Part shown: positions 12,537-27,817 of the stretch, in pieces | How positions within the stretch are numbered: the first letter of the stretch is position 1 | Layout: each line of letters opens with the position of its first letter | NCBI GenBank assembly: GCA_947365965.1 | Contig: CANAZG010000016.1 | Span: forward strand, 1-43,455 | Origin: an uncultured Clostridia bacterium | GTDB lineage: Bacteria; Bacillota; Clostridia; Oscillospirales; Oscillospiraceae | DNA: 43,455 bases | Direction: 5' to 3' | Translations under genes and position numbers: made by a program | Notes under the pieces: model-generated | Seen by the model: only the letters and a program-made list of their open reading frames with translations | The model's database searches: none | What the model was told of the DNA's origin: nothing

Positions 12537-15500
12537 ATGAGCGAGCTGAGCATCCGCAGAGACCGGGAGCTCTCCGCGGCCCGATACCGGGCGGCGGAAA
12601 AGACAGAGAAGACGGAGACCACGGAGAAGGCCGCGGGCAGCGGCCCGGTCCGGGAGAAAACGCCGGGCTTCACCCTCTCGGAGACCCTGCGCCAGCTGCT
12701 GGCCGGCAGCAGCCGGACGGAGAGCCAGATCCGGGAGAGCCGCAGGACCCTCCAGTCCGGCGAGGCCCTGCTGGCGGAGGTCCAGGAGAACCTCTCCCGC
12801 ATAGAGAAGGTGGCCCGGGAGGCCGCCGGGGAGGGGGAGATGGACCGGGACGCCCTCCAGGCCCAGCTGGACAAGCTGCGGCAGGAGATTGACCGGATCA
12901 TGCACAGCGCCTCCGGCGGCGGGAACCTATTTCTGGACGGGGAGGACGGCGCTCTGCTCCCCGGCGGCGAGATCCTGCCCAGCTGGCTGACCCAGGGGGC
13001 CGATTCTCTCACCCCGGACCAGCTTCTGGCCGCCCTGGGCCTTGATAAGAACGCCAGCGGCGCGGACCTGCTGGCCGCCATCAAGAACAGCTCCCTGGAC
13101 GGCCCCGCAGGCCGTCTGGCGGCCCTGTACCTGGGGGCGGTGATCGCAGGGAACGGGGAGATCCGCATGGACATGGCCCTGGAGGGGCTGCGGCAGCTGA
13201 TGGAGCGGGTAGCCCAGGGGGTTCCGGCGGATCAGGCGGTGAATGAGCTTACCGGAGGAACCTTTGCCAGTCTGGCCGACTTCCAGAGCCAGTTCACCGG
13301 CGGCACGGCCCCGGGCCTGGAGGCGTTTCTGACAAACCTCCTGCTCACCGGGGAGGGGGACCTCCTCCTGGAGCTCCCCGCCCTTCCGCCCCTTATGTTA
13401 GGGCTGGATGGGCTGGAGGGGATGAACCTGGATCTCCTCATGAACCTCCTCACCCCCTCCGGCGACGCGGACGGCGTCCCCTCCGATCCTGCCGCCAGCG
13501 GGGCCGATACGGCCCCGGTCCCCCCGGAGGAGCCCGGCCCCGCCGGCAGCGCCCTGGCGGCGGCAGCGGGAGAGCCCCTGCCCTCCCTGGAGGTGGGCTC
13601 CCTCCGGGTGTGGGGACAGGACCTCTCCGGGGTGTCCCTGGGGAAAGATGGCGTGCTGGTGGTGGCCGGACAGGGGGACGTGACCCTGGAGAGCACGGGC
13701 CAGGAAGGGCCCCCTGTCCGGCTGGCCGGCTCCGGGACCGTCACCCTCCGAAACGTCTCCGTCCCCCTGCTGACCGCGGAGGGCAGAGAGGTCCGGCTGG
13801 CCGGCGCGGGGGAAAATTCCCTTCAGACGGTCCGGCTGAGCCCGGGGACGGTCCTCACCCTGGAGGGGGGCGGATTTCTCCGTATGGGGGCCCTGGAGGC
13901 CGCTCCCACCGCCCTGCTCCGCCTCCGGCCCGGCGCGGCGGCGGAGGTGCGGCAGGGGGAGGAGACCCTGGGCGAGGTGAAAATCCCCGTGGTCCTGGAG
14001 GGTCCCGCCTCCCTGGCGGCCCGGACGGAGCAGGCCAGGGACGGTCAGGGCAGGAGCCTGAACCCTGTGGACCTCATCTGGAAGACCCTGCTGCCGGGCT
14101 GGAGCGCCGTCACCGCCCTGGCGGTGGACGGCCGGCAGGTGAAAACCCATCTCCCCGGCGGCGAGCTGCCGGCCCTGGTGCGGCTGTGGCTGTGCAAGGG
14201 GGACCAGGGTCATCCGATCCACGCCCTCACCCTCTGGGGCCGGGACCGCGCCGGCGAGACCAGGACCCGGTACGCCTACCTCCGCTGGAACCAGCGGGCG
14301 GGGTCCTTCCAGGAGACCCATATGTACCCCAACCCCTTCACAGTCACCGGCGGCGAGGAGGACCGGGACTGGGTGTATGAGGAGGAGACCCAGACCCTGC
14401 GAATCCTCTCCAACCAGGTGACCGCCCTGTCCGGCGGTGCGGGGACCGACGCAGGCCGGACGCCCTTCACCGGCCGGGTCGCCCTGGCCGACGGCATCGG
14501 CAGCCTGGAGCTGACCCTGGGGGGCGTGGTGTGCCGGGCTGCCGCCGGCAGAGCCTTTGCCCTGGGCCGGGAGAACAGCGCAACCCTGCTGCTCCAGAGC
14601 GGGACCGGCAGCGTCTTTGAGAGCGGACCGGGCTGCGCCGGCATCTCCCTGGGGGACGGCTCCACCCTGCGCATTGACCAGGACGGCTCCCCCGGCAGCC
14701 GGGGGAGCTCCGACGGCGCTCTCACCGCCGCGGGGGGAGCCGGCGGCGCGGGCATCGGCAGGGACCGTGGCCCCAGCCGGGATCGGAGCGCCCAAATCCA
14801 CATCCGGGGCGGCGTCATCACCGCCCTGGGGGCCGGGGGCGGCGCGGGCATCGGCAGCGGCCGGAGCAGCCCCATGGGGCCCATCGTCATTACCGGCGGC
14901 GTTATCAACGCCGTGGGCGGACCCGGGGGCGGCGCGGGCATCGGCGGGGCCCTGGCCGCGCCGGTGGGGGACATCAGCATCCGGGGCGGAACGGTCTCCG
15001 CCTCCGCCGCCGATCAGGCCGCCGCCATCGGGGCGGGGGTCCAGGGGGCCTGCGGGGACATCCTCATCACCGGCACCGCCCGGATCGTCAAAGCCCTGGG
15101 GGGCAACCCCGGGGCGGACATCGGGGCCTGCCTCTTCGGCGGGTGCGGGCAGGTGCTCATCTCCGGCGGCGCGGACATCGGCAGCGCCAAGCCCTGGACC
15201 AAGACCGGCATCTCCCTGGAGATGGGGGCCGACACGGCTACCCTGCCCCAGTTCCGCCTGTCCGCCAAGTCCCTCCGGCTGGACGGCCTCTCCGTGTCCA
15301 CTCGGGAGCAGGCCCGGGCCGCCCGGCGGACCGTGGAGCTGGACCGGCGGTGGGTGTCCCGGATTCAGGACGCCTACGGCGCGCTCTACGGCCAGCTGGA
15401 GCAGAGCTTCAGCGGCCTCTACGGCGGCCAGCCGGAGGGCCCGGTGCGGGACAGCGCCTCCGCCGGCGCGCTGGTGACGGATATGCGCCAGTCCATCCTT

Positions 15501-15572
15501 CAGGAGTCCGCCCACGTCATCCGCACCCACAGCCGGCGGACCAAGGAGTGTGTGTGGCAATTGCTGTGGTGA
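12537..15572 (+). CDS. Flagellin-end-like protein with large beta-repeat core (1011 residues)
   Basis: Residues about 44-135 align by eye with the flagellin N-terminal helical domain: TLSETLRQLLAG matches the ISEKMR-type helix, TLQSGEALLAEVQENLSRI matches the LQTAEGALNEVHDILQRM helix, and ALQAQLDKLRQEIDRI with the following FLDG matches the ALQxEIDQLxxEIDRI...LLDG signature. The last 85 residues resemble the C-terminal flagellin helices (VSRIQDAYGALYGQLEQSF; SAGALVTDMRQSILQES). The usual MRINxN start is replaced by a charged 43-residue leader, and the very end is basic and Trp-rich. The 780-residue core contains beta-rich segments and, at about 731-885, five glycine-rich repeats with GGGAGIG and xIRGGxI motifs that suggest a beta-solenoid. 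No signal peptide is present. No other flagellar gene lies in the window. Whether it is secreted as a filament subunit is unknown. Confidence 0.8.
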   Translation: MSELSIRRDRELSAARYRAAEKTEKTETTEKAAGSGPVREKTPGFTLSETLRQLLAGSSRTESQIRESRRTLQSGEALLAEVQENLSRIEKVAREAAGEGEMDRDALQAQLDKLRQEIDRIMHSASGGGNLFLDGEDGALLPGGEILPSWLTQGADSLTPDQLLAALGLDKNASGADLLAAIKNSSLDGPAGRLAALYLGAVIAGNGEIRMDMALEGLRQLMERVAQGVPADQAVNELTGGTFASLADFQSQFTGGTAPGLEAFLTNLLLTGEGDLLLELPALPPLMLGLDGLEGMNLDLLMNLLTPSGDADGVPSDPAASGADTAPVPPEEPGPAGSALAAAAGEPLPSLEVGSLRVWGQDLSGVSLGKDGVLVVAGQGDVTLESTGQEGPPVRLAGSGTVTLRNVSVPLLTAEGREVRLAGAGENSLQTVRLSPGTVLTLEGGGFLRMGALEAAPTALLRLRPGAAAEVRQGEETLGEVKIPVVLEGPASLAARTEQARDGQGRSLNPVDLIWKTLLPGWSAVTALAVDGRQVKTHLPGGELPALVRLWLCKGDQGHPIHALTLWGRDRAGETRTRYAYLRWNQRAGSFQETHMYPNPFTVTGGEEDRDWVYEEETQTLRILSNQVTALSGGAGTDAGRTPFTGRVALADGIGSLELTLGGVVCRAAAGRAFALGRENSATLLLQSGTGSVFESGPGCAGISLGDGSTLRIDQDGSPGSRGSSDGALTAAGGAGGAGIGRDRGPSRDRSAQIHIRGGVITALGAGGGAGIGSGRSSPMGPIVITGGVINAVGGPGGGAGIGGALAAPVGDISIRGGTVSASAADQAAAIGAGVQGACGDILITGTARIVKALGGNPGADIGACLFGGCGQVLISGGADIGSAKPWTKTGISLEMGADTATLPQFRLSAKSLRLDGLSVSTREQARAARRTVELDRRWVSRIQDAYGALYGQLEQSFSGLYGGQPEGPVRDSASAGALVTDMRQSILQESAHVIRTHSRRTKECVWQLLW
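14727..15190 (+). repeat. Degenerate glycine-rich coding repeats (GAGIG type)
   Basis: Inside the gene at 12537, about five units of 30-35 codons repeat the pattern [beta strand]-GG-x-[VI]-x-A-x-G-G-x-G-GAGIG. Successive copies drift to AAAIG and GADIG. Regular turns of this kind are typical of right-handed beta-solenoids. The DNA copies are diverged rather than identical. Confidence 0.65.
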
Positions 15573-15580
15573 CTGAAAAA

Positions 15581-15607
15581 CGCCCCCAAGGGGGCGCGGC
15601 CGCTTTT
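15581..15607 (+). terminator. Terminator of the flagellin-like gene
   Basis: CGCCCCC (15581-15587) and GGGGGCG (15590-15596) form a stem around AA, nine bases after the stop, followed by CGGCCG and a TTTT run. A second hairpin lies at 15626. Confidence 0.65.
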
Positions 15608-15625
15608 GATCCATGGAATTAAGAC

Positions 15626-15663
15626 ATAGAAAACCGGGGCGCCCAGGCGTCCCGGTTTTCTAT
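15626..15663. terminator. Strong hairpin with 13-bp perfect stem, possible bidirectional terminator
   Basis: ATAGAAAACCGGG (15626-15638) and CCCGGTTTTCTAT (15651-15663) form a perfect stem around a 12-base loop that can itself pair partly (GCGCC/GGCGT). The TTTTC arm gives the T-rich side for the plus strand. It lies between two genes pointing toward each other. Confidence 0.6.
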
Positions 15664-15682
15664 CGTTTGGAGGATCAGATGA

Positions 15683-15710
15683 AAAAGAAGTCTTGTCACT
15701 TGCAAGACCT
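15683..15710 (-). terminator. Terminator of the ABC cluster
   Basis: On the minus strand GTCTTG and CAAGAC form a stem around CAAGTGA (15708 down to 15690), followed by TTCTTTTTC. It lies about 75 bases after the ATPase stop codon, at the end of the long minus-strand cluster. Confidence 0.65.
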
Positions 15711-15724
15711 ACTATACCCTGGAA

Positions 15725-15757
15725 TTGTTACGAAATCCAGCACAGTTTGTTACGAAA
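15725..15757. repeat. Direct repeat TTGTTACGAAA, two copies, 22-bp register
   Basis: Identical 11-base copies lie at 15725-15735 and 15747-15757, starting 22 bases apart (two helical turns). They lie between the ATPase gene end and its terminator, in A/T-rich DNA. A protein-binding site or a 3'-UTR feature is possible; function unknown. Confidence 0.5.
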
Positions 15758-15780
15758 GTATAAAATCTCATTTTCCTCCG

Positions 15781-17052
15781 CTAATCCTCCGCAAAGGGGT
15801 CTCCCAGGTCCCGGATGGGGACCGGATCCTCCGGAGGGACCTCCTCCGCCGCTGCGGCAGGCGGTTCCGGCGGCGGGGGGAGCTCCGGCTCCGCCTGGGG
15901 CTCCTCTGGGGGTTCCTCCGCCGGGACGGCGGGCGGAAACTCCAGGTTGATCCCCGTCTCCCTGTCGAACACGTGGACCGCGCTGCCCCGGAAGGTGAAG
16001 CCCACCGCCGTGCCGGCGGCCAGGGTGTCCTCCCCTCGCTCCGCGGCCTCCTCGCTGACGGGCACCACGATCACCGCTTCCCGGCCGCAGGTGCGCACGT
16101 GGATGTGGACCGCGCTGCCCATCATCTCTGACACGTCCACCTCCGCCGGCACGGAGCCCGGCCCGCCGGACAGGGTGATGTGCTCCGGCCGTATGCCCAG
16201 CACCACCTCCTGGCTCTCCGCGCCGGCCGCCGCCAGACGGCGGCACTTCTCCGGCGAGAGGTCCACAGCCGTACCCCCCAGTTCCACGCTGTATCGGTCC
16301 CCCGTCCGGGTGAGGCGGGCGTCAAAGGTGTTCATCTGGGGCGAGCCGATGAAGCCCGCCACAAAGAGGTTGGCCGGGTGGTGGAACACCTCCTGGGGCG
16401 TCCCCACCTGCTGGACAAAGCCCTCCTTCATGATGACGATCCGGTCCCCCAGGGTCATGGCCTCGGTCTGATCGTGGGTGACGTAGATGAAGGTGGTGTT
16501 CACCTTCTGCCGCAGCTTGAGGATCTCCGAGCGCATCTGGTTGCGCAGCTTGGCGTCCAGGTTGCTCAGAGGCTCGTCCATGAGAAACACCTGGGGCTCC
16601 CGGACAATGGCCCGGCCGATGGCCACCCGCTGGCGCTGGCCGCCGGAGAGGGCCTTGGGCTTGCGCTTGAGGAGTTCCGTGATGTCCAGAATCTCCGCCG
16701 CCTCCCGGACCTTCTGGTCAATGACCCGCTTGGGGAACTTCCGCAGCTTCAGGCCGTAGGCGATGTTGTCGTAGACCGTCATGTGGGGGTAGAGGGCGTA
16801 GTTCTGGAAGACCATGGCAATGTCCCGGTCCTTGGGGGGCACGTTGTTCACCTTCCGGCCGCCGATGTGGATCTCGCCGTCCGTGATGTCCTCCAGTCCC
16901 GCCACCATCCGCAGGGTGGTGGACTTGCCGCAGCCCGAGGGGCCCACCAGCACGATGAACTCCTTGTCCGCAATCTCCAGATCAAAGGCCTGCACCGCCA
17001 CCACAGTGTTGTCGTATACCTTTTTTACCTTTCGTAAGCTCAGCTCCGCCAT
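15781..17052 (-). CDS. UgpC/MsmX-type ABC transporter ATPase with acidic Pro-rich tail
   Basis: This 423-residue protein has a complete ABC ATPase: Walker A GPSGCGKST (37-45), Q-loop VFQNYALYPHM (81-91), signature LSGGQRQR (135-142), Walker B VFLMDE (155-160) and switch His193. A C-terminal TOBE/MalK-like regulatory domain follows (about 235-370, with VLGIRPEHI). This class energises CUT1 sugar importers, so it should serve the permeases at 20344 and 21413. Unusually, residues 373-423 form a tail of Pro, Glu and Ala with almost no other residues before a short PIRDLGDPFAED end. Two ATGs are possible: 17058, overlapping the previous stop as ATGA, and 17052, better spaced from GGAGG and matching the family start; the latter is used. 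It is the last gene of the cluster. Confidence 0.9.
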   Translation of the reverse strand: MAELSLRKVKKVYDNTVVAVQAFDLEIADKEFIVLVGPSGCGKSTTLRMVAGLEDITDGEIHIGGRKVNNVPPKDRDIAMVFQNYALYPHMTVYDNIAYGLKLRKFPKRVIDQKVREAAEILDITELLKRKPKALSGGQRQRVAIGRAIVREPQVFLMDEPLSNLDAKLRNQMRSEILKLRQKVNTTFIYVTHDQTEAMTLGDRIVIMKEGFVQQVGTPQEVFHHPANLFVAGFIGSPQMNTFDARLTRTGDRYSVELGGTAVDLSPEKCRRLAAAGAESQEVVLGIRPEHITLSGGPGSVPAEVDVSEMMGSAVHIHVRTCGREAVIVVPVSEEAAERGEDTLAAGTAVGFTFRGSAVHVFDRETGINLEFPPAVPAEEPPEEPQAEPELPPPPEPPAAAAEEVPPEDPVPIRDLGDPFAED

Positions 17053-17054
17053 GG

Positions 17055-18167
17055 TCATTCCCCTCCGGATGTTTTCTCGTATTGGCGCTCCAGCCGCTCC
17101 TCCCGGCGCTTCTCCACTGCCGCCTCCACCTTCTCCGGCACCTTGGCCTTCACAAAGCGGTAGGTGCGGCGGATCTGCCGGATGCCCAGCGCCAGAACCG
17201 TCACCGCCGGGCACACGGCGAACACCATGGACAGCACCGCCAGCAGGGCGGCGTAGTCCTCTGTCAGGCGCACAGCGTTCTCCCAGTAGGGGTAGATCAC
17301 CCCGTTCAGGCGCATGGACCGCTCAGCGAAATTCTTCGCCACCTCCAGCAGGTGGGAGAAGTCGTACCGGCTGGAGTTCTCCACCAGATCGCCGCCGTCG
17401 GCGGGGAAGTCCTCCAGAATGCCCTTGGCGAAATTCCGGATAGGATTGGGCATGACGATCTCGTAGCAGGTGATGGAGGCGGTCTCCACCAGCCGGCTGA
17501 GGGCGGAGTAGGACATGTACACGCCCCCGTCCCCGGTGTAGGCCTTTTGGGTGGCAAAGTCCGTCTCCCGGGCCACCACCCCGGCCACCACGAAGGGCTC
17601 GTCGTTGATGTACATGGTCAGACCAGCCAGATCCGTGCCGCCGAAGAGCCGCCAGGCGGTCTCCTCGTCCAGCACCACCAGATCGTCCATCAGGTCATCG
17701 GAGCGGATGTAGGACCCGCCCAGGAGGGTGAGAGGGTGGAAGTAAAAGAAGTCCCCTCCCACGCCGGTGGCCTTCACGCTGGAGCCGGTGGTGTTCTCAG
17801 AGCTGACGGTGACGCTGGCAAAGCCGCAGTAGGCGTCGATGGTGAGGCTGCCGTTCTCCGGGGCCTCCAGGGACTGCTCAACCAGCGTCCCGTCCAGACT
17901 CTGGCGGAACCTCTGGATGTCCTCCTCCGACTTGCCCTTCCCCTCCGGCATAAAGACGGCCAGCTGGGCGAAGCGGGTCTCCCCCTCCCCCTGGAACCGC
18001 TGGGCGGCGGACAGGGTGGACGGGGTGCTCCGCATTTTTTCCAGGCCCGCCAGGGAGGCACCCATGGCCGCCAGCAGCAGCAGGTTCACCCCCAGCAGGA
18101 CCCAACGCCGCCAGCCCAGCCTCTTGAGGACGGACAGAATCCGCCCCAGACGGTTATCCTTCATCAT
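17055..18167 (-). CDS. MacB-core-like membrane protein with only two membrane segments
   Basis: This 370-residue protein has one membrane segment near residues 20-42, an outer domain (about 50-295) resembling the MacB periplasmic core (the DDLMDDLVVLDEETAWRLFGG and INDEPFVVAGVV stretches are characteristic), and one more hydrophobic segment (about 304-328) before a basic, charged tail. Full MacB/FtsX permeases have four membrane segments, three of them after the core; here two are missing. It may therefore be an accessory mechanotransmission or sensor subunit rather than a permease (inference). The start codons overlap the stop of the membrane-fusion gene upstream, and its stop overlaps the ATPase gene region, so these three are tightly coupled. 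Confidence 0.75.
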   Translation of the reverse strand: MMKDNRLGRILSVLKRLGWRRWVLLGVNLLLLAAMGASLAGLEKMRSTPSTLSAAQRFQGEGETRFAQLAVFMPEGKGKSEEDIQRFRQSLDGTLVEQSLEAPENGSLTIDAYCGFASVTVSSENTTGSSVKATGVGGDFFYFHPLTLLGGSYIRSDDLMDDLVVLDEETAWRLFGGTDLAGLTMYINDEPFVVAGVVARETDFATQKAYTGDGGVYMSYSALSRLVETASITCYEIVMPNPIRNFAKGILEDFPADGGDLVENSSRYDFSHLLEVAKNFAERSMRLNGVIYPYWENAVRLTEDYAALLAVLSMVFAVCPAVTVLALGIRQIRRTYRFVKAKVPEKVEAAVEKRREERLERQYEKTSGGE

Positions 18168-20224
18168 GGATTCTCCACCATCCGCACCTGGGTGCCCGGG
18201 GCCAGGGGCTTGCTGGATGTGGTAATCACGTAGTCATTCTCCGCGATGCCCGTTACGGCGGCGTTGGTGTCGTCCTCGGCCAGCACCTGCACGTCCACAC
18301 GGGTGGCGGTATAGCGGTTGCCCAGGGGGGTGTTCCGGCTGGTAATCACCAGCACAAAGCTGCCGTTGGTGTCCTGGCGCAGGGCGCTCTTGGGCACAAT
18401 GGTGTTGAAGGTGGAGCTGCGCTGGCCGATGGAGAGGCTGATGTTGGTCCCCGCGTCAATCTCGCCGGTGAGGCGGAATACCAGCAGCTTGTTCTGGCCC
18501 GGGTTAGCCGGGTCAGGGGTGATCTGCTCCAGGGTGGCAGTGATGTCGCTGCCCCAGTAAAAGTTGGTCACCTCCGCCGTGTCCCCCACCTTCACCTGCT
18601 TGGCCTGCTCGGCGGTGACGGAGATCTTGATGGTGTAGCCCCGGTCTATCACATCAATGACCGCCATGGCCTCGCCGGGCTTGTTCTCCTTGCCGGCGGT
18701 GACGTTCACCGCGCTGATAATGCCGGAGACCTTGGCGGGGATCTCCGTGTCCACCGCGTCCTTCTGGTACTTGTCCACCAGGGCCTGCAGCCGGGAGATC
18801 TCCAGGCGCATGGCCTCCAGATTCAGGTTGTTGAGCTGCTTGTCAATGTCCTTGCCGCTGAGGGCCTCCTCCAGGGCGCGCTCCTTGGCGGCAATCTCCG
18901 TAAGGGCGGCCTCGTAGTCCTTCTGCTTGGCCTGGAGCTCCTCCAGCTTGGTCTTCAGCTCCTCCACGGCGGCGGTCTGCTCCCGCTGCCCGGCCTCGTA
19001 GAGCCGCAGCTGCTCCTTCACCTGGCTGTTGGCCCCGGACAGGGCATCCAGCCGCTGCCTGGCGTCCCGCAGCTGCTGCTGCACCCCGGCCAGCTCGGAC
19101 TGGGCCGTGTCGATCTCCCGCTGGATGGCCTGCCGCTTCTCGGCCACGGTCCCGGCGGAGGCGTCCTTATCCTGGACCGCCCGCTGGTAGGCCTGCTGCT
19201 TGTCGGCTACGTCCTTCTGGTCCGCCAGGAGGGTGTCATAGGCGGTCTTATAATTGGCGTAATCATATTTTTTCCCAGACGACGGGGCAGCCGAACCACT
19301 GTCATCTCCAGCAGGCGGGGCAGCCCAATCGCCTTGCTGTAATCTACCCAACGCCCCCTCAATTTGAACCTGCTCCATACTTGACAAGGCGCGGGGAGAG
19401 GATGTTGAGAGGGTCCATCCCATCAGATCATTCAGTACCTCCGCATACGCCGCCCAATCTCCGGCCCAGTTGGTCTGGGCCTCCTCCAGAGCCCGGCGGG
19501 CGTCCTCGATCTTCCGGTCCGCGCTGAGGGCGTCATCGGCCGTCACGTCGTTGAGCTCCTTGCGCTTGGTCTCAATGGTGGTGTTCAGGGTCTCCACCTT
19601 GCCCTCCAGCTCCTTCACCTTGGTCTGGGCCTCGGTGTACTCCTCGCTCTCCGCCTGGATGGCCTTGAGCTCCTCGATCATCCGCGTCAGCTGGCTCAGC
19701 TGGGTCTGGGCGGCGGCCAGATCCCCCTTGGCGTAGGAGATGTCCGTCTCTGTGACCAGATTGGCGTCCCGGGCAGCCAGGGCCTTTTGCAGGTCCTCCC
19801 GCAGGTTCTTCACGCTCAGATCCTCCGTGGCGTAGTCCTTGGAGTAGCTGAGGATCTGCTTCTGGTACTCGATCTGCTGCTTGCTCAGGGACTCCTGGGC
19901 CTCCTTGAGTTCCTGGCTCTCCACATCCCCCAGCACGAACAGCAGATCCCCCTGCTCCACCTTGTCTCCCACCTTCACGCATACGCTCCGGATCTCCCGG
20001 GTCTGGTCCAGGGTCACCTCGTAGCTCTCATTGGCGGACACCGTGCCGCTGCCGCGGATCTTGGCGTTGATGGTGCCGGATGTGACCAGCTGCGTGGCCA
20101 CCTCGGGCAGGGATCGGTTCATGATCGTCTGGGAAAAGAAGGTCAGCACCAGCAGCACCGCCAGAAAGATGATGGCGATGGTCTTGATGAGCTCTCTTTT
20201 CTTGGACTTTTCTTTTACTTCCAT
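18164..20224 (-). CDS. HlyD/MacA-like membrane-fusion (adaptor) protein with very long coiled coil
   Basis: This 686-residue protein has an N-terminal membrane anchor (about residues 12-34), a first lipoyl-like half (about 60-102, ending VKVGDKVEQGDLLFVLGD), a helical hairpin of nearly 390 residues, the second lipoyl half (about 488-530, with IPAKVSGIISAVNVTAGKE), and beta-barrel domains to the end (VPKSALRQDTNGSFVLVI; NDYVITTSSKPLAPGTQV). Usual Gram-positive members are 350-450 residues; the hairpin here is far longer. Such proteins normally link an ABC exporter to the cell exterior. Bases about 19250-19450, encoding residues 258-325 of the hairpin, are lower in GC and differ in codon use (a Trp-, Ser- and Gln-rich stretch), as if exchanged. 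The stop overlaps the MacB-like gene start. Confidence 0.88.
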   Translation of the reverse strand: MEVKEKSKKRELIKTIAIIFLAVLLVLTFFSQTIMNRSLPEVATQLVTSGTINAKIRGSGTVSANESYEVTLDQTREIRSVCVKVGDKVEQGDLLFVLGDVESQELKEAQESLSKQQIEYQKQILSYSKDYATEDLSVKNLREDLQKALAARDANLVTETDISYAKGDLAAAQTQLSQLTRMIEELKAIQAESEEYTEAQTKVKELEGKVETLNTTIETKRKELNDVTADDALSADRKIEDARRALEEAQTNWAGDWAAYAEVLNDLMGWTLSTSSPRALSSMEQVQIEGALGRLQQGDWAAPPAGDDSGSAAPSSGKKYDYANYKTAYDTLLADQKDVADKQQAYQRAVQDKDASAGTVAEKRQAIQREIDTAQSELAGVQQQLRDARQRLDALSGANSQVKEQLRLYEAGQREQTAAVEELKTKLEELQAKQKDYEAALTEIAAKERALEEALSGKDIDKQLNNLNLEAMRLEISRLQALVDKYQKDAVDTEIPAKVSGIISAVNVTAGKENKPGEAMAVIDVIDRGYTIKISVTAEQAKQVKVGDTAEVTNFYWGSDITATLEQITPDPANPGQNKLLVFRLTGEIDAGTNISLSIGQRSSTFNTIVPKSALRQDTNGSFVLVITSRNTPLGNRYTATRVDVQVLAEDDTNAAVTGIAENDYVITTSSKPLAPGTQVRMVENP

Positions 20225-20343
20225 CGGTTTTTATCCTTTCAACAGGGTTTCGGTTGCGGAAATCAATTGCACCGCAGCAGCCTGCAATTTGCGGGGTCTG
20301 TGCGGGGGCGGGCGCCCCTTCTTTTGAAAAAGGACCGCTTCGC

Positions 20344-21231
20344 CTACCCCTTCACGGAGCCCTGGTGGGCAATGCCCTCCACCAGATAGTCCTCGCCGTG
20401 GAGGAACAGCAGCAGCGAGGGCACCATATAGATGGTGGCGATGGCAAAGGCCAGGCCCACCTCGCTGGAGTTGATGGTGGAGAGGTACACGCTCAAGGGC
20501 TGCTTCTCCGCGTCCGGCAGCAGGATGATGGGCTGCTCCACCATGTTCCAGTAGTCGATGAACACCAGAATGGCGATGGAGTACAGGGCGCTGCGGCACT
20601 GGGGCAGGCAGATGTCCTTGAACACCTGCCACTCGCTGGACCCGTCCAGCTTGGCCGCCTCAATGAGGGATGCGGGGATGCGGCGCATGGACTTGGTCAG
20701 CAGGAACACGGAGAAGGGGGCGAAGGCCCCGGGGAAGATGATGGACCACCGGGTGTTGAGAAGGTTCAGCCAGTCGCTGACCAGGTAGTTGGGCACCAGC
20801 GTCACCTGCACCGGCATGAGCATCAATATCACGTAGAAGAAAAAGAGGAACGAGCGCACCTTCCCCCGCCAGCGGGTGAAGCCGTAGGCGGTGATGGAGG
20901 CCACCCCCAGCTGGAGCAGCACAATGGGCACCACCAGGATCACGGAGTTCCAGAATTTCAGCAGATAGTCCGGGCTCTTGATGAGCACGGTGATGTACTG
21001 GCTGAGGCTGACCTTGTCGGGGATGAACTTCAGGTTCACGGTCTCGGAGATATAGGTCTTGCCCTCGCTGCCGGAGACGTTGGAGAACACCTTGCCGTAG
21101 TTGGCGCTGATCTCCGACTGGGTCATAAAGGAGTTGGTGATGGTCAGCACCGTGGGCATCAAAAACGCCAGGGCAAACCCCGCCGCCAGCACGGTCAGGG
21201 CAAGGCGCCCCAAGTAGCGGTTCTTTTTCAT
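20344..21231 (-). CDS. CUT1 ABC permease, MalG/inner-membrane type
   Basis: This 295-residue protein has about six membrane segments and the EAA loop EAAKLDGSSEWQVFKDICLPQCRSAL that contacts the ATPase. The first segment follows a short MKKNRYLGR start, and a long outer loop (about residues 35-85) lies between segments one and two, as in MalG-type partners. It should pair with the permease at 21413 to import an oligosaccharide or similar solute delivered by the lipoproteins at 22353 and 24880. A 181-base gap holding a nested inverted repeat separates it from its upstream partner gene; 119 bases without assigned features separate it from the membrane-fusion gene downstream. Confidence 0.93.
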   Translation of the reverse strand: MKKNRYLGRLALTVLAAGFALAFLMPTVLTITNSFMTQSEISANYGKVFSNVSGSEGKTYISETVNLKFIPDKVSLSQYITVLIKSPDYLLKFWNSVILVVPIVLLQLGVASITAYGFTRWRGKVRSFLFFFYVILMLMPVQVTLVPNYLVSDWLNLLNTRWSIIFPGAFAPFSVFLLTKSMRRIPASLIEAAKLDGSSEWQVFKDICLPQCRSALYSIAILVFIDYWNMVEQPIILLPDAEKQPLSVYLSTINSSEVGLAFAIATIYMVPSLLLFLHGEDYLVEGIAHQGSVKG

Positions 21232-21300
21232 GTTTTGTCATTCTCCAGTTTGGGTATAACTTTGCAGGAGACAGGCGCCGCTGATGGGCGCCGTCAGCGC

Positions 21301-21389
21301 GAATGTAGGGGCGAGCATCGCTCGCCCGCTCTGACGATACGCACCAGCGGTCCGTGAGAAGCGGGCGAGCGATGCTCGCCCCTACATTC
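21301..21389. repeat. Nested inverted repeat (29-bp perfect arms) inside the ABC cluster
   Basis: Bases 21301-21329 and 21361-21389 are perfect 29-base inverted repeats separated by 31 bases. Each arm is itself a hairpin: GGGCGAGC-ATC-GCTCGCCC at 21309-21327 and its mirror in the other arm. The unit therefore has a BIME/REP-like cruciform structure. It lies between two co-directional permease genes and would be present in their transcript, where it may block decay or lower expression of downstream genes. Similar GTAGGGGCGAGC-type elements are dispersed in many bacterial genomes (established knowledge); copy number here is unknown. Confidence 0.8.
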
Positions 21390-21412
21390 CCCGCCCCCCT
21401 TGCCGTCAGCGG

Positions 21413-22372
21413 TTACCCCTCCACGTCCTTGCCGAAGATGTCCTCCGCCTTGAACAGCAGCGCGATCAGCGCCACCATCACCAGCGCCATCAGCACCGCC
21501 GCCGAGGCCATCTTCTGGTAGTCGAAATTCTCAAAGGTGTTGTTCATGAAGTGCTGCATCATGTACAGCCCGTCAAAGGGGTACTTGCCCACCAGCAGGT
21601 AGATCTCCCGGAACACCTTAAAGGAATTGATGATGGAGAGAATCGCCACGAACAGCACTGTGGGGGACAGGTAGCGCAGCTTGATGTTGAAAAACTTGTG
21701 GGCCGCGCTGGCCCCCTCCACGTCCGCCACCTCCAGCAGCTCCTTGGGGATGTTGTTCAGGGCCGCCATAAACAGGATCATGTTGTATCCCAGGTTCTTC
21801 CACAGAAACAGCACCACAATCACCAGCAGGCAGTACTTCGAGTTGAGCCAGTCGATGGGCTCCACATGGAAGCTGGCCAGGATGACGTTCAGCGTGCCCC
21901 GGTAGTGGAACACCACCTGCCAAATGAGCACCACCGACGCCACCGGCACCATCATGGGGCTTAAAAAGAAGGTGCGGAACAGACTCTTGCAGGGGATGCG
22001 GCACTCCAGCAGCAGCGCCAGTCCCAGGCTCAGCACCACCGCCAGGGGCACCGCTATGGCGGAAAACATGGCGGTGTTGCTGGCCGCTGTGCGGAAGGAG
22101 GAGTTCCCCAGCACGGCCTTGAAGTTGTCCAGAAACACAAACTCCGGGTTCAGGGGACTGCGGATGATGGAGTAGTACACCACCACCAGGAAGGGGACGA
22201 TAAAAAATACCGCCACCCCCGTCACACTGGGTCCCAGGAAGGCGGCGGAGTGCATCACGTCCCGGATGTGCTCGTTGCTCCGGTCCCAGGTCCGCTTCAC
22301 CTTCCCCTGTCCGGCGGCCAGGGGCTTTTTCCCCCGGCCGCCGAATTTGATCTCAGCGGTTTTCATTGACAT
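21413..22372 (-). CDS. CUT1 ABC permease, MalF type
   Basis: This 319-residue protein has a basic cytoplasmic N-terminus of about 40 residues and six membrane segments. The EAA loop is present in the form LEVADVEGASAAHKFFNIKLRYLSP. It is the MalF-type partner of the permease at 20344. The first ATG (22372) overlaps the lipoprotein gene by 20 bases; a second, MKTAEIKF, starts at 22366 and overlaps by 14. Neither has a strong ribosome binding site, so translation is probably coupled to the upstream gene. Confidence 0.93.
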   Translation of the reverse strand: MSMKTAEIKFGGRGKKPLAAGQGKVKRTWDRSNEHIRDVMHSAAFLGPSVTGVAVFFIVPFLVVVYYSIIRSPLNPEFVFLDNFKAVLGNSSFRTAASNTAMFSAIAVPLAVVLSLGLALLLECRIPCKSLFRTFFLSPMMVPVASVVLIWQVVFHYRGTLNVILASFHVEPIDWLNSKYCLLVIVVLFLWKNLGYNMILFMAALNNIPKELLEVADVEGASAAHKFFNIKLRYLSPTVLFVAILSIINSFKVFREIYLLVGKYPFDGLYMMQHFMNNTFENFDYQKMASAAVLMALVMVALIALLFKAEDIFGKDVEG

Positions 22373-24764
22373 AGAGCTTCACCCGGCTCTGGATCTGGGT
22401 GACCGTGTCGTCCAGGCTCCGGTCCCCGGCGAAGTAGGAGCCCGCACCGTCGGAGACAATGCTGAAAATCTCCTGGTCATAGCTGTACACGCTGTCTACC
22501 GCGTTGTACAGGTCCATGATCTGATCGTACTCCTCCTGGCTGGTGGAGTAGATATCCACCATGAAGCCGCCCCCCCAGCCCACGGAGGAGTAGGACTCCT
22601 CGATGGGGTTGCCGTTCTCGTCCAGGACCTGCTCACCGTTCTCGTCCAGCTTGTAGCCGTCCGGGGTCATGGCGTCCTCCCGGACCAGATCAAAGTCCGC
22701 CTTGTTGGTGGGGAAGCCCCAGAAGCCGCCCCGCTGCAAGCTCTCCACATCCTCGAACTTGGGCAGCAGCAGTTGGCGCAGGAAGCTCCAGGCGCCCTCC
22801 TTGTCCTTGCAGGTGGAGGACATGGCCAGACCGCTGCTGATCGCAAAGGCGCTGCCCACGCCGCCGTCCTCCTGAGGGAAGCCCACGTAGCTCACCGAGC
22901 CGCCGAAGAGTGCCTTGTCCGTCTGGATGCTCTCAAAGTCGGACAGGTATGTGCTGTTGAGCATCTGCCGGCCCTCGGAGATGCGCTTGTAGTCGTTGTC
23001 CTGGTCGTCCACAGCGGCGGCATGGTCGTACTCCGCCGGGAACTGGTTGCAGAACTCCAGCATGGCCTTGAAGGCATCGCTCTCAAAGCTGCACTCCCCG
23101 GTCTCCCAGTTGACAAACTGCTCCAGATTCTGCATCATGACGGTGCTGAGAATGCTGTCCTTGGTGTCGTAGTAGCTGAAGACGGAGCAGCCCTCGGGCA
23201 TCCTGGCCAGGGCCTCCTGGAGGTCCGCCACGGTCCAGCTGTACCGGTCCCCCACCACGTCTGTGGCCCCGGCCACCGTCGAAATACTGAAGGTGTCGAA
23301 TACCTGATAGAGCTTGCCGTCCCGCTCGGCGGCCAGGAAGGGCCGCTCCATGAGGCTGTCCCTGCCGATGTCCGGGTCGCCGTCGATGTAGGGCCACAGA
23401 TCCTCCAACACTCCCTTGGCCGCGTACTGGGCAAGGGAGATCGTGCCGGCGTCCAGGATATCGGGCACCTTGCCGGCCACAATCTCCGTGTTCAGCCGGG
23501 TGAGGCCGGCGAAATAGTCCTCGTCGGTGCTGTACTTGGAGTAGTCCGTCACCTCAATGCGGTGGGTGGCGCTGGACTTGTTGAAGTCGATGACAGCGTT
23601 GCGCTGATCGTAGCCCATGCCCAGGGCCGCGTAGGTGAGGGTGGTCTTCTCCGGCAGGGAGGCGCGGTCCGTGGCTGTGAGCACCGCCAGCTCCGTGCTG
23701 CTGCCGCTGCCGGAGTAGCTGCGCCAGTCCTCGGTCATCACCGCCACCCGGCCGTCCTCCAGAAAGGAGAAGAACTGAACCGTGTTCACGTTGATGTCGG
23801 CGTCCAGCCAGTTGAGCAGCTCCACGCCGGTCTCGTCGGCCTCTCTGTAGCCGCAGAGGATGTCCCCCTGCTGGTAGTAGAAGAGATAGTCTCCGCCGCC
23901 GGAGTAGACCTGGTAGGCGCTGCTGGGCAGGGCGTACTCCTTGCCCCAGCCCTTGGCCTCCTTGTCGATGACCCGGACCTTGTAGCCGCTGGTGTTGGTG
24001 GTCAGGTCGCTGAAGTGCATGCGTATGGCCGCCCGGCCGTCGCTGAGGAGGATGAGATCATCCCCCCACAGCTGGTCGTCCTCAATGGTGAACTTGATGT
24101 TCTTGGACCCGTCCAGCACGGCCAGCTTGCCCTGGCCGCTGATGTAGCAGTCCCCGTCCTTGTCAAAGGTAACGCCCTGGATGTAGTCCATCTCCAGCTT
24201 CTCCGTCAGGTCCGTGGCGTCCAGATGGGTGATCTCGTTGCCCGTGGAGTCCAGCTGGCGGAACATCTGGATGTCCTCGGAGCCGGTCATGTAGCTGTAC
24301 TTGTCGTCCTTCTCCGGGTCAAAGCCCTCGGGCAGCTCAAAGCGCTGGATGTACATGCTCTCCCGCACCCACAGCGTCCCCTCCAGGCCGGCGGAGATGT
24401 TATTGATGTAGCTGTCGCCCTCGCTGCCCTCGGGGGGCTCCATGGGCGCGTAGTTCTCCAGCTCCACAGCCTCCCCGCCCTCCAGGGGCATCCGGTAGAT
24501 GGCGTAGTGTCCGTTGTAGTTCTCCTGGCTGTCCGGCTCGTCCCGGACGTAGCCCATGAGGTAGAGGTTCTTCCCGTCGGAGCAGCCCCCCTGGATGCGC
24601 TCCATGCCCACGTCCACGTCAATAAACTCCGGCACGTAGACCGTGCCGCTAAGGGGGGACGCGTCCTCCTCATCGCCGCCGGTTCCGCAGGCCGCCGTCC
24701 CCAGGACCAGCACCAATGCCAGCAGCAGAGCTGTCAGCTTCTTTCCGCGTATGTACACAATCAA
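22353..24764 (-). CDS. Lipoprotein: propeller-like domain fused to family 1 solute-binding domain (copy 1)
   Basis: This 803-residue protein has a lipoprotein signal ending in LGTAAC (Cys26). Residues about 40-360 form a beta-rich region with repeated strands such as DGKNLYLMGYVRD, EGTLWVRES and GGDYLFYYQQGDI, which suggests a beta-propeller-like fold. From about residue 370 (LPEKTTLTYA) an extracellular solute-binding protein family 1 domain follows, with LNTEIVAGKVPDILD and GGSVSYVGFPQEDG. The sole in-frame start near the signal is TTG at 24764, with GTG at 24758 as an alternative, after a weak AAAGG. The protein is a paralogue of the one at 24880. It should hand a ligand to the permeases downstream. 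The fused N-terminal domain is unusual for importers. Confidence 0.88.
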   Translation of the reverse strand: MIVYIRGKKLTALLLALVLVLGTAACGTGGDEEDASPLSGTVYVPEFIDVDVGMERIQGGCSDGKNLYLMGYVRDEPDSQENYNGHYAIYRMPLEGGEAVELENYAPMEPPEGSEGDSYINNISAGLEGTLWVRESMYIQRFELPEGFDPEKDDKYSYMTGSEDIQMFRQLDSTGNEITHLDATDLTEKLEMDYIQGVTFDKDGDCYISGQGKLAVLDGSKNIKFTIEDDQLWGDDLILLSDGRAAIRMHFSDLTTNTSGYKVRVIDKEAKGWGKEYALPSSAYQVYSGGGDYLFYYQQGDILCGYREADETGVELLNWLDADINVNTVQFFSFLEDGRVAVMTEDWRSYSGSGSSTELAVLTATDRASLPEKTTLTYAALGMGYDQRNAVIDFNKSSATHRIEVTDYSKYSTDEDYFAGLTRLNTEIVAGKVPDILDAGTISLAQYAAKGVLEDLWPYIDGDPDIGRDSLMERPFLAAERDGKLYQVFDTFSISTVAGATDVVGDRYSWTVADLQEALARMPEGCSVFSYYDTKDSILSTVMMQNLEQFVNWETGECSFESDAFKAMLEFCNQFPAEYDHAAAVDDQDNDYKRISEGRQMLNSTYLSDFESIQTDKALFGGSVSYVGFPQEDGGVGSAFAISSGLAMSSTCKDKEGAWSFLRQLLLPKFEDVESLQRGGFWGFPTNKADFDLVREDAMTPDGYKLDENGEQVLDENGNPIEESYSSVGWGGGFMVDIYSTSQEEYDQIMDLYNAVDSVYSYDQEIFSIVSDGAGSYFAGDRSLDDTVTQIQSRVKLYVNENR

Positions 24765-24792
24765 TCAACCTTTCTTCTCTTGGGATAGCTCC

Positions 24793-24823
24793 ATTATACG
24801 GATGGATGCATCATTTTTGCATC
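24793..24823 (-). promoter_or_regulatory. Promoter with TGCATC direct repeat upstream of lipoprotein copy 1
   Basis: On the minus strand TGCAAA (24821-24816) serves as -35, followed after 17 bases by TATAAT (24798-24793). The -35 lies inside a direct repeat that reads TGCATC-ATTTT-TGCATC on the plus strand (24807-24823, 11-base register). The same layout precedes the other lipoprotein gene at 27408-27438. This placement is typical of an activator site that overlaps a weak -35 box. Confidence 0.65.
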
Positions 24824-24879
24824 GAACAGGGCGGTGATTTCTTAAATATCCCTTAAGAACCTGTTCAGAATCCCCCAGC

Positions 24880-27309
24880 TCACTTGTTTTCGTTGACATA
24901 GAGCTTCACCCGGCTCTGGATCTGGCTGGCGGTCTCCTCCAGGCTCTTGTCCCCGGAGAAGTAGGCCCCGCACTGCTCGTTGACGATGTTGTAGACGTTC
25001 TCGTCGTAGCGGTACATCCGGTCAATGGCGTTGTAGAGCTCCATGAACTGGTCGTAGTCCGCCTGGGTGGGCTTGTCCATCTCGATCTCCTGGCCGGGGC
25101 TGATCCATAGGGTGTCCTTGTACACCCGGGGCTGCCCGTTCTCGTCCGTGGCGATTTCCCCGTTCTCGTCGTACTCGTAGTTGGGCTCCATGGACTTCTC
25201 TATGGCCTTCTCAAAGTCGGCCTTGTTGACGTAGAACTGGCTGTAGAACTCATCCTCGTCTACGGGCAGGAGACACTGGCGCATGAAGGACCAGGCGCCA
25301 TCCTTGTCCTTGCAGGCCGTGGACATGGCGATGCCCCGGGACCCGCTGGCAAAGCAGCTGCCCACGCTGCCGTCCTCCGTGGGATAGCCCACGAACGTCA
25401 CATCCCCCTGGAACATGGCCTTGAGCCGGGGCAGGCTCCAGTCCAGGCTGGAGACGGAGGTCTGGACGAGCATCTGCTTGCCGTTCATGATCCGGGATTC
25501 CTCATACTCCCACTCCTCCTCGTTCATCTCGTTCCAGTTGAACTCCGCGGGGAAGCTGTTGCAGAACGCCAGCAGGGACTTGAAGCTGTCGCTGTCAAAG
25601 CGGCACTCCCCCTTGTCCCAGTCCACGAAGGCGTCCGCGTTGACGCTCATGATGGTGCGCAGCATCTCGGACTTGGTGTCGGCCTGGCCGAAGATGGTGC
25701 AGCCCTCGGGCATCCTGGTCAGGGCCTCCTGGAGGTCCGCCAGGGTCCAGCTCATGCTGTCGCCCACAATACGGGAGGAGCCGGCCACGGTGGTGATATA
25801 GAAGCTGTTGAAGATTTCATAGAGCTTGCCGTCCATCTCGTTGGCCTGGAGCACCCGCTCCATAACCGCCTCCCGGCCCAGGTCCGGATCGTTTTCAATG
25901 AAGGGCCACAGGTCCTCCAGAACGCCCTTGGCCCCGTACTGGGCCAGGGGGAGGGAGGTGGTGTCCAGCAGATCGGGCACCTTGCCGGCCACGATCTCCG
26001 TATTGAGCTTGCTCAGGCCGGCGGAGGTGTCGTCCTCGGTGTTGAACTCGGAGTAGTCCTGGACCACAATGCGGTGCGTGCCGCTCTTCTTGTTGAAGTC
26101 GATGACGCTCTGGCGGGTGTCGTAGCCCAGGTACATGGTGGCGTAGGTGAGGGTGGTCTTCTCCGGCAGGGAGGCGCGGTCCGTGGCCGTCATGACGGCC
26201 AGCTCGATCTTCAGGCTGTAGGGCCCGTTCTCCGGGCGCACCCATTCCCGGGTGACCACCACCACCCGGCCGTCGGGGGTGAAATCGAAGAAGCTGACGT
26301 CGTTGCGATTGATGTCGGAGTCGATCCAGGAGAAGAGCTTCTCCCCATCCTGGGATCCGGCCTTGCAGCCGTAGATGGAGTCGTTGTTCTGGTAGTAGAA
26401 GAGGTAGTCCCCGCCGCCGGTGAAGGCGCTGTAGGCGTTGACAGGCATCACGTACTCCGGACCCCAGGCCTTGCCTGCCAGGTCGATGGTCTTCATGATG
26501 TTGCGGGAGATCTCCTTTTCCTCGTCATAGTAGTTGTGGAGCAGGGCCATGGTGCCGTCCCCCAGCAGGATCAGCTCGCCGTAGAGCTGCTCCCCGTCCA
26601 GGGAGAAGAGGAGGTTCTGGTCCTTGTCCAGGACGAAGAGCTTCTTCTCCGAGGTCACGTAGATGTTGCCCTCCCGGTCATAGTTCATGCCGCTGGTGTA
26701 CTCTGCCTCCAGCTTTTCGTTCAGGGCGGAGGCGTCCAGCTCCGTGCGGGTGATCTCGTTGCCCGCGGCGTCCAGCTGGCGGCGGAGCACCGTGTTCTGG
26801 TCCACCTCGTAGCTCCACCTGTCGTCCGTGTTCTCGTCAAAGTCCTCGGGCAGGTCAAAGGTGTAGGCGTTGATGACCTCCGTCACCCAGAGGGTGTTGT
26901 CCTCCCCGGCCGTCACCTTCTCGATGTACACGCCGCCCTCGGTCCCCTCGGGCAGCGCCGTCATCTGGTAGTTCTCCAGCTTTTCCGCCTCGCCGCCGGC
27001 CAGGGGCAGACGGTAGAGGTAGGTTTTGTAGACATAGCTGGGGTAGGTCTCGCCGGTGACGGCGTCCGTCTCCGTGGTCTCCTCCCCCTTGTTGGCGATG
27101 AGGTAGACCCAATCCCCCCCTACACAGCCGCCGGCGATGTCGTCCAGCCCCTCCAGGTTCATCTCCAGGAACTGGGGCACGTAAACCATGCTGCTGAGCA
27201 GCTGGTCCTCCCCGCCCTGCTTGCCGTCCTTCCCGCAGGCCGCAAGGCCCAGGAGCAGGATCAGCGCAAGCCCCAGGGCCGCAGCCCGTCTCCTCGTGAT
27301 CTTTTTCAT
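24880..27309 (-). CDS. Lipoprotein: propeller-like domain fused to family 1 solute-binding domain (copy 2)
   Basis: This 809-residue protein resembles the neighbour at 22353 along its whole length: both share TATDRASLPEKTTLTYA, LNTEIVAGKVPD, GAWSF and the C-terminal IQSRVKLYVNEN. The lipobox is LGLAAC. As in copy 1, a beta-rich N-terminal domain (about residues 40-370) precedes the solute-binding domain. The frame extends upstream to 27402, but the ATG at 27309 has AAGGAGG in front and gives a proper signal peptide. About 115 bases separate it from copy 1, which has its own promoter. Two binding proteins for one permease pair suggest different ligands or expression conditions. Confidence 0.9.
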   Translation of the reverse strand: MKKITRRRAAALGLALILLLGLAACGKDGKQGGEDQLLSSMVYVPQFLEMNLEGLDDIAGGCVGGDWVYLIANKGEETTETDAVTGETYPSYVYKTYLYRLPLAGGEAEKLENYQMTALPEGTEGGVYIEKVTAGEDNTLWVTEVINAYTFDLPEDFDENTDDRWSYEVDQNTVLRRQLDAAGNEITRTELDASALNEKLEAEYTSGMNYDREGNIYVTSEKKLFVLDKDQNLLFSLDGEQLYGELILLGDGTMALLHNYYDEEKEISRNIMKTIDLAGKAWGPEYVMPVNAYSAFTGGGDYLFYYQNNDSIYGCKAGSQDGEKLFSWIDSDINRNDVSFFDFTPDGRVVVVTREWVRPENGPYSLKIELAVMTATDRASLPEKTTLTYATMYLGYDTRQSVIDFNKKSGTHRIVVQDYSEFNTEDDTSAGLSKLNTEIVAGKVPDLLDTTSLPLAQYGAKGVLEDLWPFIENDPDLGREAVMERVLQANEMDGKLYEIFNSFYITTVAGSSRIVGDSMSWTLADLQEALTRMPEGCTIFGQADTKSEMLRTIMSVNADAFVDWDKGECRFDSDSFKSLLAFCNSFPAEFNWNEMNEEEWEYEESRIMNGKQMLVQTSVSSLDWSLPRLKAMFQGDVTFVGYPTEDGSVGSCFASGSRGIAMSTACKDKDGAWSFMRQCLLPVDEDEFYSQFYVNKADFEKAIEKSMEPNYEYDENGEIATDENGQPRVYKDTLWISPGQEIEMDKPTQADYDQFMELYNAIDRMYRYDENVYNIVNEQCGAYFSGDKSLEETASQIQSRVKLYVNENK

Positions 27310-27407
27310 CGTCCATTCCTCCTTATATCCATGATTTGGCCATGGAATTTCTCCTCTGCTACTATAGACGCAGAACCAGGGCAAAAAGTTTCCCACTGTC
27401 ACATTTC

Positions 27408-27438
27408 ATTTTACAGGCGCTTGCATCATCTTTGCATC
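27408..27438 (-). promoter_or_regulatory. Promoter with TGCATC direct repeat upstream of lipoprotein copy 2
   Basis: On the minus strand TGCAAA (27436-27431), 17 bases, then TAAAAT (27413-27408). The plus strand reads TGCATC-ATCTT-TGCATC at 27422-27438. Aligned with the site at 24793-24823, the first 17 minus-strand bases match at all but one position and both -10 boxes are in register. Confidence 0.62.
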
Positions 27439-27503
27439 TTTTTGGCAACACCTGTGTTTCATTTTCCAAAAAGAGGGAGGATATCGGATTTTGCGGTCAA
27501 GAA

Positions 27504-27533
27504 ACGCCCTGAAAGCGTCTGCTTTCAGGGCGT
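27504..27533 (-). terminator. Terminator of the small ORF at 27559
   Basis: ACGCCCTGAAAGC (27504-27516) and GCTTTCAGGGCGT (27521-27533) form a perfect 13-bp stem around GTCT. On the minus strand it follows the stop by 25 bases and is followed by TTTCTTG. It also shields the small gene from the lipoprotein promoter region. Confidence 0.7.
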
Positions 27534-27558
27534 CTTTGCCGATTCAGGCGGGGCGCTG

Positions 27559-27720
27559 TCAGCTGTCCCGCTCCCCGTCTGCCGCAGGCAGGACTGTGAT
27601 CTTCGTCTCCGGCGCACTGACGTAGATCTCCTCGCACCGGCGCTGCACCGCAATGCGTATGTTGATTGCCTTCTCAGTCTCACGCATCATCTCAAGATAC
27701 ATCTTTTTATAACCTGGCAC
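27559..27720 (-). CDS. Small hypothetical protein (53 residues)
   Basis: The start is a GTG (27720) with AGGTGATAAC before it; this is preferred to the ATG at 27780, which lies in the promoter. The product begins VPGYKKMYLEMMRETEKAI and ends in SAPETKITVLPAADGERDS, with one predicted helix at the N-terminus. No domain is recognised. It is transcribed divergently from the XRE gene at 27818 and has its own promoter and terminator, so it looks like a real accessory gene of unknown role. Confidence 0.6.
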   Translation of the reverse strand: MPGYKKMYLEMMRETEKAINIRIAVQRRCEEIYVSAPETKITVLPAADGERDS

Positions 27721-27751
27721 GTTATCACCTCGCTTGTGTATTATTTTGCCC

Positions 27752-27780: not shown

Positions 27781-27817
27781 TAGCTTAAATATGATATGGT
27801 TACCGTGGTGATAAAAA

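Follow-up and report, generated by a model that had tools for sequence, protein, structure and literature searches.

What does a sugar-type importer gain from parts that belong to another branch of transporters? Type I importers of the ATP-binding cassette (ABC) class are taught as complete with a solute-binding protein (SBP), permeases and an ATPase, and membrane-fusion (adaptor) proteins (MFPs) and MacB cores are otherwise parts of export and extraction machines. Both kinds of part are encoded in a run of seven minus-strand genes at 15781..27309 of contig CANAZG010000016.1 (positions 1..43,455, hereafter the window; assembly GCA_947365965.1), from an uncultured Clostridia bacterium of the Oscillospiraceae. 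A first-pass annotation had read the run as two lipoprotein SBPs, MalF- and MalG-type permeases, an MFP, a MacB-core protein and a UgpC/MsmX-type ATPase; all seven open reading frames lie where it placed them, and the Pfam and NCBIfam assignments agree. Here, we show that the run represents a composite ABC system that is conserved in Clostridia as well as in other classes of the phylum, the core of which is MalF-MalG-MFP-MacB-core with binding proteins and in which an adjacent UgpC-type ATPase is optional. No prior description of this composition was recognised in the PubMed Central (PMC) literature searched, subscription journals lying outside its scope; the combination appears to be undescribed there, as do its breadth and its reduction series. 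The parts themselves are all of known families, and mutants of one member had been made before.

Linkage of the importer to the adaptor and MacB core

A search of GTDB species genomes with the MacB-core protein returned 71 loci, whose record titles are mostly Oscillospiraceae, Ruminococcus, Butyrivibrio and other Lachnospiraceae. An MFP gene adjoins the MacB-core gene in 69 of them, both misses (L082 and L100; L-numbers denote fetched loci and G-numbers genomes) being contig ends. MalG lies upstream in all 58 loci with at least 3 kb on that side and MalF in all 53 with at least 4 kb, and an SBP is present in 52 of the 61 with enough flank. Because this set had been found by the MacB core itself, we added a second probe, the window's MalG at E≤1e-60, which matched in 7 of 398 genomes of the phylum and in 38 of 391 of the class, both counts including the window's genome; the MalG of G262, used in that genome's own class, matched in 12 of 113 genomes. 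The matches outside the window fall at 55 distinct places, of which 48 were fetched in 47 regions and seven were left (in G823, G662, G620, G915, G855, G849 and G872); together with two regions for further MalG matches (G050 and G018 C55) these regions make up L161-L209 and hold 50 MalG genes in all. MFP and MacB-core both stand beside MalG in 42 of the 43 loci with at least 3.5 kb downstream, the single exception being a second copy in L187 that has a MacB-core gene and no MFP match. In L169 (MalG 37%) no MFP was recognised within the 1 kb present, too little room for the locus to be counted, and in L178 the order is permuted, with MFP and MacB-core upstream of MalG and the genes still together.

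The two families also keep company across genomes. Of the 60 nearest, 27 have both and 29 have neither; taken singly, MalG (E≤1e-60) occurs in 28 and MacB-core (E≤0.001) in 30. Three of the four discordant genomes (G001, G004 and G027) reflect contig edges and the fourth, G058, a weak match. Over the phylum, the MacB-core profile matched 32 of 398 genomes at E≤1e-10, four of them, the window's included, beyond 1e-100. The three weaker matches inspected (G210, G262 and G403) are all the composite system, and the remaining ones may be ordinary MacB-type permeases.

The arrangement is more than chance, because it recurs in dozens of species. A break in the neighbourhood between MFP and MalG (20224 to 20344 in the window), named in advance as the observation that would speak against a single conserved unit, is absent from 58 of 58 testable loci with the MacB-core probe and from 42 of 43 with the MalG probe. 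The proposal that importer and MacA/MacB-like parts are one conserved unit is thus borne out. Of the seven-gene order, the core MalF-MalG-MFP-MacB-core with SBPs recurs; a fixed seven-gene unit does not, since the ATPase is directly downstream in only 21 of the 66 MacB-core loci with at least 0.7 kb there and adjacent in only 13 of the 43 MalG-probed loci, and the number and place of SBPs vary.

Within the window, the MFP/MacB-core and MacB-core/ATPase genes overlap as ATGA, as had been noted for the last three genes, and the SBP2 and MalF genes share 20 bases. The gap between MalG and MFP is 119 bases and that between MalF and MalG 181, so that the tightness of the run is uneven. No terminator-like site was found on the minus strand between MalG and MFP in a scan of the region, and three terminator-like hairpins (15580..15710, minus strand) stand 3′ of the ATPase gene, the last of the run; such sites are weak evidence, given that the region has 17 against 8.0 expected and that 11 lie inside genes. 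A promoter scan gave no minus-strand promoter, its two matches (2.4 expected) both being on the plus strand.

The SBP1-SBP2-MalF block is 95.5% identical over 6.1 kb to L043 of a same-genus genome, G006; beyond the block, MalG is 82% identical and MFP about 70%. The half with the SBPs and MalF seems to have been exchanged, with MalG, MFP, MacB-core and ATPase staying in place, in what is a single case. A chimeric contig was considered and set aside: the outer right flank, asnA, is 84% identical in G006 and the MFP and MacB-core proteins 59% and 57%, which makes local exchange likelier. At the end of the block, the exchange junction, stands an inverted repeat (21301..21389) with perfect 30-base arms and a 29-base spacer inside the MalF-MalG gap. 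Its 19-base core has an exact match in one of 209 fetched loci, in the same place, and it is possibly a palindromic mobile element or a hairpin tuning MalF-MalG expression.

Subunits of the composite system

The MacB-core protein (17055..18167, minus strand; 370 amino acids) has MacB_PCD as its sole Pfam domain (3.9e-11) and lacks an ATPase domain. Its AlphaFold2 model, built on 70 rows (mean pLDDT 90.7, pTM 0.82), has a transmembrane (TM) helix at 19-47, the MacB periplasmic core domain and a 74-residue helix (294-367) comprising TM2 and a cytoplasmic tail; by model and segment prediction, the TM3-TM4 part of the MacB/FtsX fold is missing. Foldseek returned MacB as the best PDB matches, followed by Spr0694-0695, the YknZ domain, YbbAP, HrtBA, LolE/LolCDE and YtrEF, with whole-chain TM-scores below 0.4 for this query because core and helices sit in different relative positions. 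Two hydrophobic segments, predicted to be TM, occur in 67 of the 70 family rows (alignment A1), and P293 and W295-N297, just before TM2, are invariant in all 70. This architecture, only TM1, core and TM2 with a cytoplasmic helical tail and no TM3-TM4, lends no support to the earlier suggestion that the importer ATPase also drives the MacB-like part. More distant members have four to seven predicted segments, and the three scanned by Pfam all match MacB_PCD. On a MalG tree rooted with five CUT1 MalG paralogues of the window's genome as outgroup, the change between at least four and at most three segments is counted once, and forms with at least four sit nearest the root. We infer that a MacB permease without an ATPase joined the importer and then lost TM3-TM4 in the window's lineage, the direction being read from a root that rests on very long outgroup branches.

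The MFP (18164..20224, minus strand; 686 amino acids) matches HlyD_3 and Biotin_lipoyl_2 in Pfam and also matches AcrA, MacA, EmrA and BesA. The model (56 rows; pLDDT 84.6, pTM 0.36) has one N-terminal TM helix, a lipoyl part, a barrel part and a hairpin, the return arm of the last being modelled as a single helix of 168 residues (322-489), about 25 nm if straight. Across the 56 rows, the hairpin stretches total 206 to 425 residues; in 19 of the 21 loci with at least four MacB-core segments and one complete MFP, the MFP is shorter than 500 amino acids. The well-conserved TM region in these rows and the motif T[FY]F[SA][NQ]T in 76 of 100 MFPs suggest that the MFP has a fixed membrane partner. 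For scale, the helical barrel of Spr0693 is 56 Å (5.6 nm) high with the tip of the hairpin untraced, and the pump was modelled to reach 154 Å above the membrane (PMC5768738, in excerpt).

An Omp85 search was negative in all 14 genomes tried and positive in 7 of 14 control genomes, and an outer membrane is therefore unlikely in these bacteria, although the OEP (TolC-family) profile matches given below point the other way. An S-layer outside the wall of the window's organism is likely, because the window encodes an SLH-domain protein (4642-7371), a CsaB-type pyruvyl transferase and MurJ; the MurJ, polysaccharide pyruvyl transferase (CsaB type) and DUF5693 genes lie in a row at 32283-37097 (minus strand) and, with the SLH protein, are probably an S-layer anchoring set. 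Two further genes may concern the cell surface: at 12537-15572 (plus strand) a 1011-amino-acid protein that matches the flagellin N-terminal domain (PF00669, 1.4e-6) and has repeats of GGGAGIG type further along is perhaps a large flagellin-like surface protein, and at 29306-30388 (minus strand) a DUF4397 protein gene with about 3.9 copies of a 69-base tandem repeat possibly encodes a length-variable one.

SBP1 (24880..27309, minus strand; 809 amino acids) and its 50% identical paralogue SBP2 (22353..24764, minus strand; 803 amino acids) are, from their sequences, lipoproteins: the lipobox cysteine, Cys26, is invariant in the 46 rows of alignment A3, and a lipobox-like motif occurs in 63 of 69 complete members. 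SBP2 matches SBP_bac_1 at 1e-7 and SBP1 falls below the cut-off (17.3 bits, cut-off 26); of the 46 members scanned, 35 match SBP_bac_1 (E≤0.01). The C-terminal half is a solute-binding domain with sugar SBPs among its PDB matches, the best for the family profile being CbpC (1.1e-38). The N-terminal ~370 residues are perhaps a β-propeller, the signals (SGL and SdiA-regulated in one member each, and 2p4o at 0.005) all being weak. A co-change of long MFPs with long SBPs, suggested by a raw Spearman coefficient of 0.51 over 79 loci, was rejected for want of independent support on the MalG tree, where one of three supported independent pairs is in favour and two are uninformative.

Both permeases, MalF (21413..22372, minus strand; six hydrophobic segments) and MalG (20344..21231, minus strand; same-genus copies 88-94% identical), match BPD_transp_1 (8.2e-15 and 7.1e-15). 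The ATPase (P0007; 15781..17058, minus strand, probably starting at 17058, alternatively at 17052) matches ABC_tran, OB_MalK and TOBE_2 in Pfam, thus carrying the MalK OB fold and TOBE domain, and UgpC in NCBIfam (488.7 bits, cut-off 432). Its closest PDB matches are 7x0q (the best, listed as 'ABC transporter related protein', which we take to be Clostridium thermocellum Clo1313_2554) and MsmX. It keeps two of the four MsmX multitasking residues (D77, R104, E110 and K154 in MsmX numbering; PMC7658222, in excerpt), D and R being retained in the alignment and E110 and K154 replaced by Val and Gln. P0007 first looked like the genome's only UgpC-type copy (next match 49%), and a role as shared motor was considered on the basis of six other CUT1 permease pairs without an ATPase in the stretches fetched. 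Sharing is less likely because the assembly is 76.6% complete and five of six same-genus genomes tried carry a second UgpC-type copy, the nearest 61-66% identical to P0007; more likely, P0007 is dedicated to the window's own system. Seven family relatives with a MacB core (G026-G028, G031, G032, G034 and G035) have a UgpC-type match (E≤1e-90) on other contigs only. ATPase adjacency changes eight times on the MalG tree, which is an upper limit, given that any locus truncated at a contig end was taken to lack the gene; the motor thus looks like an exchangeable part.

Genes for GH2, GH5, GH43, sugar kinase or UxaC stand beside single loci. In L067 and L078 an FGGY sugar kinase gene and a DUF4867 gene lie downstream (Pfam on the L067 copies), and L067 also has a GH2 gene upstream; these genes hint at which sugar those Lachnospiraceae use.

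A proposed envelope machine and its rivals

The statement that no named system has this composition was nearly right. From its sequence, transporter C of C. thermocellum, the CbpC operon, is a member that was apparently overlooked: in L182 (genome G787), the SBP matches the CbpC crystal chain 7x0o with 981.6 bits over 437 residues and is accompanied by MalF, MalG, an MFP and a 473-amino-acid MacB-core protein. The MFP there is split in this assembly into two overlapping reading frames (300 and 152 amino acids; 6134-7487, minus strand), by a frameshift, a sequencing error or a real break. Transporter C corresponds to Cthe_2125-2128 (PMC8303734, in excerpt), and the excerpted text of PMC9601137 names 'acra' (Fig. 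1 legend) and 'hp' among genes of sugar ABC operons, 'acra' without comment. Two literature hits were discarded: 'MACB' in two Caldicellulosiruptor papers denotes strain names, not the protein, and 'cbpC' in the excerpt of PMC4300822 is another gene.

We put it at about even odds that the parts form one composite envelope machine on a type I (CUT1-like) importer frame, with an adaptor ring held by the MacB core. Its genetic basis has good support; the physical complex, the wall-spanning tube, the direction of import and the class of substrate are what we infer. The lipoprotein SBPs would present a ligand, probably a glycan, to the MalF/MalG pair, which would be energised by the UgpC-type ATPase, from its own gene in the window and probably from a separate one in many relatives. 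The MFP may form a ring on the outer face, six-membered if it follows its homologues, and its hairpins are long and could traverse the peptidoglycan. The MacB-core domain would grip the base of the adaptor as MacB grips MacA and, being motor-less and two-TM in the window's lineage, would serve as a clamp or transmission part. We speculate further, and more tentatively, that this is a new class of envelope-spanning ABC importer, in which a MacA-like tube of up to about 25 nm runs through the peptidoglycan of bacteria without an outer membrane and a MacB that lost its motor and then half its TM helices couples importer to tube.

Several observations weigh against the reading as one importing machine. 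MFPs of ~340-490 amino acids, as some members have, are probably too short to reach across a thick wall. OEP (TolC-family) profile matches exceed the cut-off in 9 of 14 genomes (best 57.1 bits), including the window's own (24.2 bits, cut-off 22), two of the matches being the MFP itself by position (G006 C7; G787 C1:2523390). The MalF EAA loop has Arg for Pro at its end in all 56 close members, 15 of which have Ser in place of Gly, with mixed residues at these positions in 47 distant members. The neighbours are not sugar genes in the window or in the Butyrivibrio and Ruminococcus loci looked at, where they are of housekeeping type. According to the excerpted text of PMC9601137, the CbpC pocket is blocked by an extra loop and none of the sugars tried was bound, and a transporter C mutant grew normally on glucose, cellobiose and Avicel; an earlier study cited there had reported CbpC binding. 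The results on binding and on the mutant are hard to square with a plain sugar importer. Expression of cbpC was up on xylose in an engineered strain (PMC7471329, in excerpt).

The main rival, which we judge unlikely, is a sensing relay: the importer frame would have become a receptor, passing ligand or wall state via SBPs and MFP to MacB-core and MalFG and on to the ATPase or cytoplasmic partners, with little or no transport. The blocked CbpC pocket, the altered MalF coupling loop and the housekeeping-type neighbours would suit a relay, as would the two-component genes that lie no more than 2.5 kb away in 15 of 92 loci. The enrichment of the latter (0.058 per kb as against 0.033 further out) is too weak for a sensor role to be argued from it, however, and the MalG EAA loop is canonical, with E, DG and P kept in 109 of 109 aligned; moreover, some loci adjoin sugar-use genes. 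Decidedly improbable is a machine that works outward, exporting or extracting an envelope component (glycan, lipid or lipoprotein) with the SBPs as acceptors or regulators. The company that MFPs and MacB cores keep elsewhere and the Foldseek matches of the MacB core, from MacB, Spr0694-0695 and the YknZ domain to YbbAP, HrtBA and LolE/LolCDE, would favour export, but MalF/MalG and the SBPs are of importer families, and the window's unit has no MacB-type ATPase. Least probable, by a little, are two separate co-transcribed machines, one importing sugar and the other an adaptor/MacB-core pair that works with a different ATPase: the subunits stem from different ABC types and the run contains a 181-base gap and a cassette boundary (95.5%, 82% and about 70% to L043), but linkage holds in both directions across classes and in the permuted L178, and the boundary lies between MalF and MalG, within the importer and not at its junction with the adaptor.

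In gut, rumen and cellulolytic Clostridia, one subfamily of permeases hardly ever occurs without two parts of the MacAB branch. Should these parts form one machine, it would follow that two branches of ABC systems, importers and mechanotransmission machines, can merge; this would bear on the passage of larger glycans through a thick wall and would give a fresh reason for C. thermocellum CbpC not behaving as a sugar-binding protein. Mutants of the transporter C operon already exist (PMC9601137, in excerpt), so that the idea is testable soon.

Comparison with known ABC systems

The composite system shares with CUT1 type I importers (MalFGK2; AraNPQ with MsmX; C. thermocellum transporter B with Clo1313_2554) an SBP, two BPD_transp_1 permeases and a UgpC/MalK-type ATPase, which in both is often encoded elsewhere. 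The window itself has two permeases with EAA loops, that of MalF deviant, a sugar-type SBP and a MalK/UgpC-type ATPase with OB/TOBE. It departs from these importers in having MFP and MacB-core partners in nearly every locus, an altered MalF EAA loop and ~800-amino-acid SBPs with an extra N-terminal part. Transporter C differs from the window in its 460-amino-acid SBP without the extra part, in its 473-amino-acid MacB core with six hydrophobic segments and in that no adjacent ATPase was found in L182.

With MacAB-TolC, Spr0693-0694-0695 and YknWXYZ, the system has in common the adaptor fold and the MacB periplasmic core. The window's MFP has the lipoyl part, barrel and hairpin of a MacA-type adaptor, its hairpin helix measuring 168 residues as compared with the 56 Å barrel of Spr0693 (hairpin tip untraced), whereas its MacB-core protein has neither the ATPase domain of MacB nor four TM helices; the unit lacks a MacB-type ATPase, has two TM helices in place of four and is linked to a type I importer. 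The type VII mechanotransmission systems FtsEX and LolCDE likewise carry an extracytoplasmic core fold on two TM helices. The window's protein lacks the TM3-TM4 of these four-TM proteins and its unit has no FtsE/LolD-type ATPase, and members of the composite system with at least four predicted segments exist.

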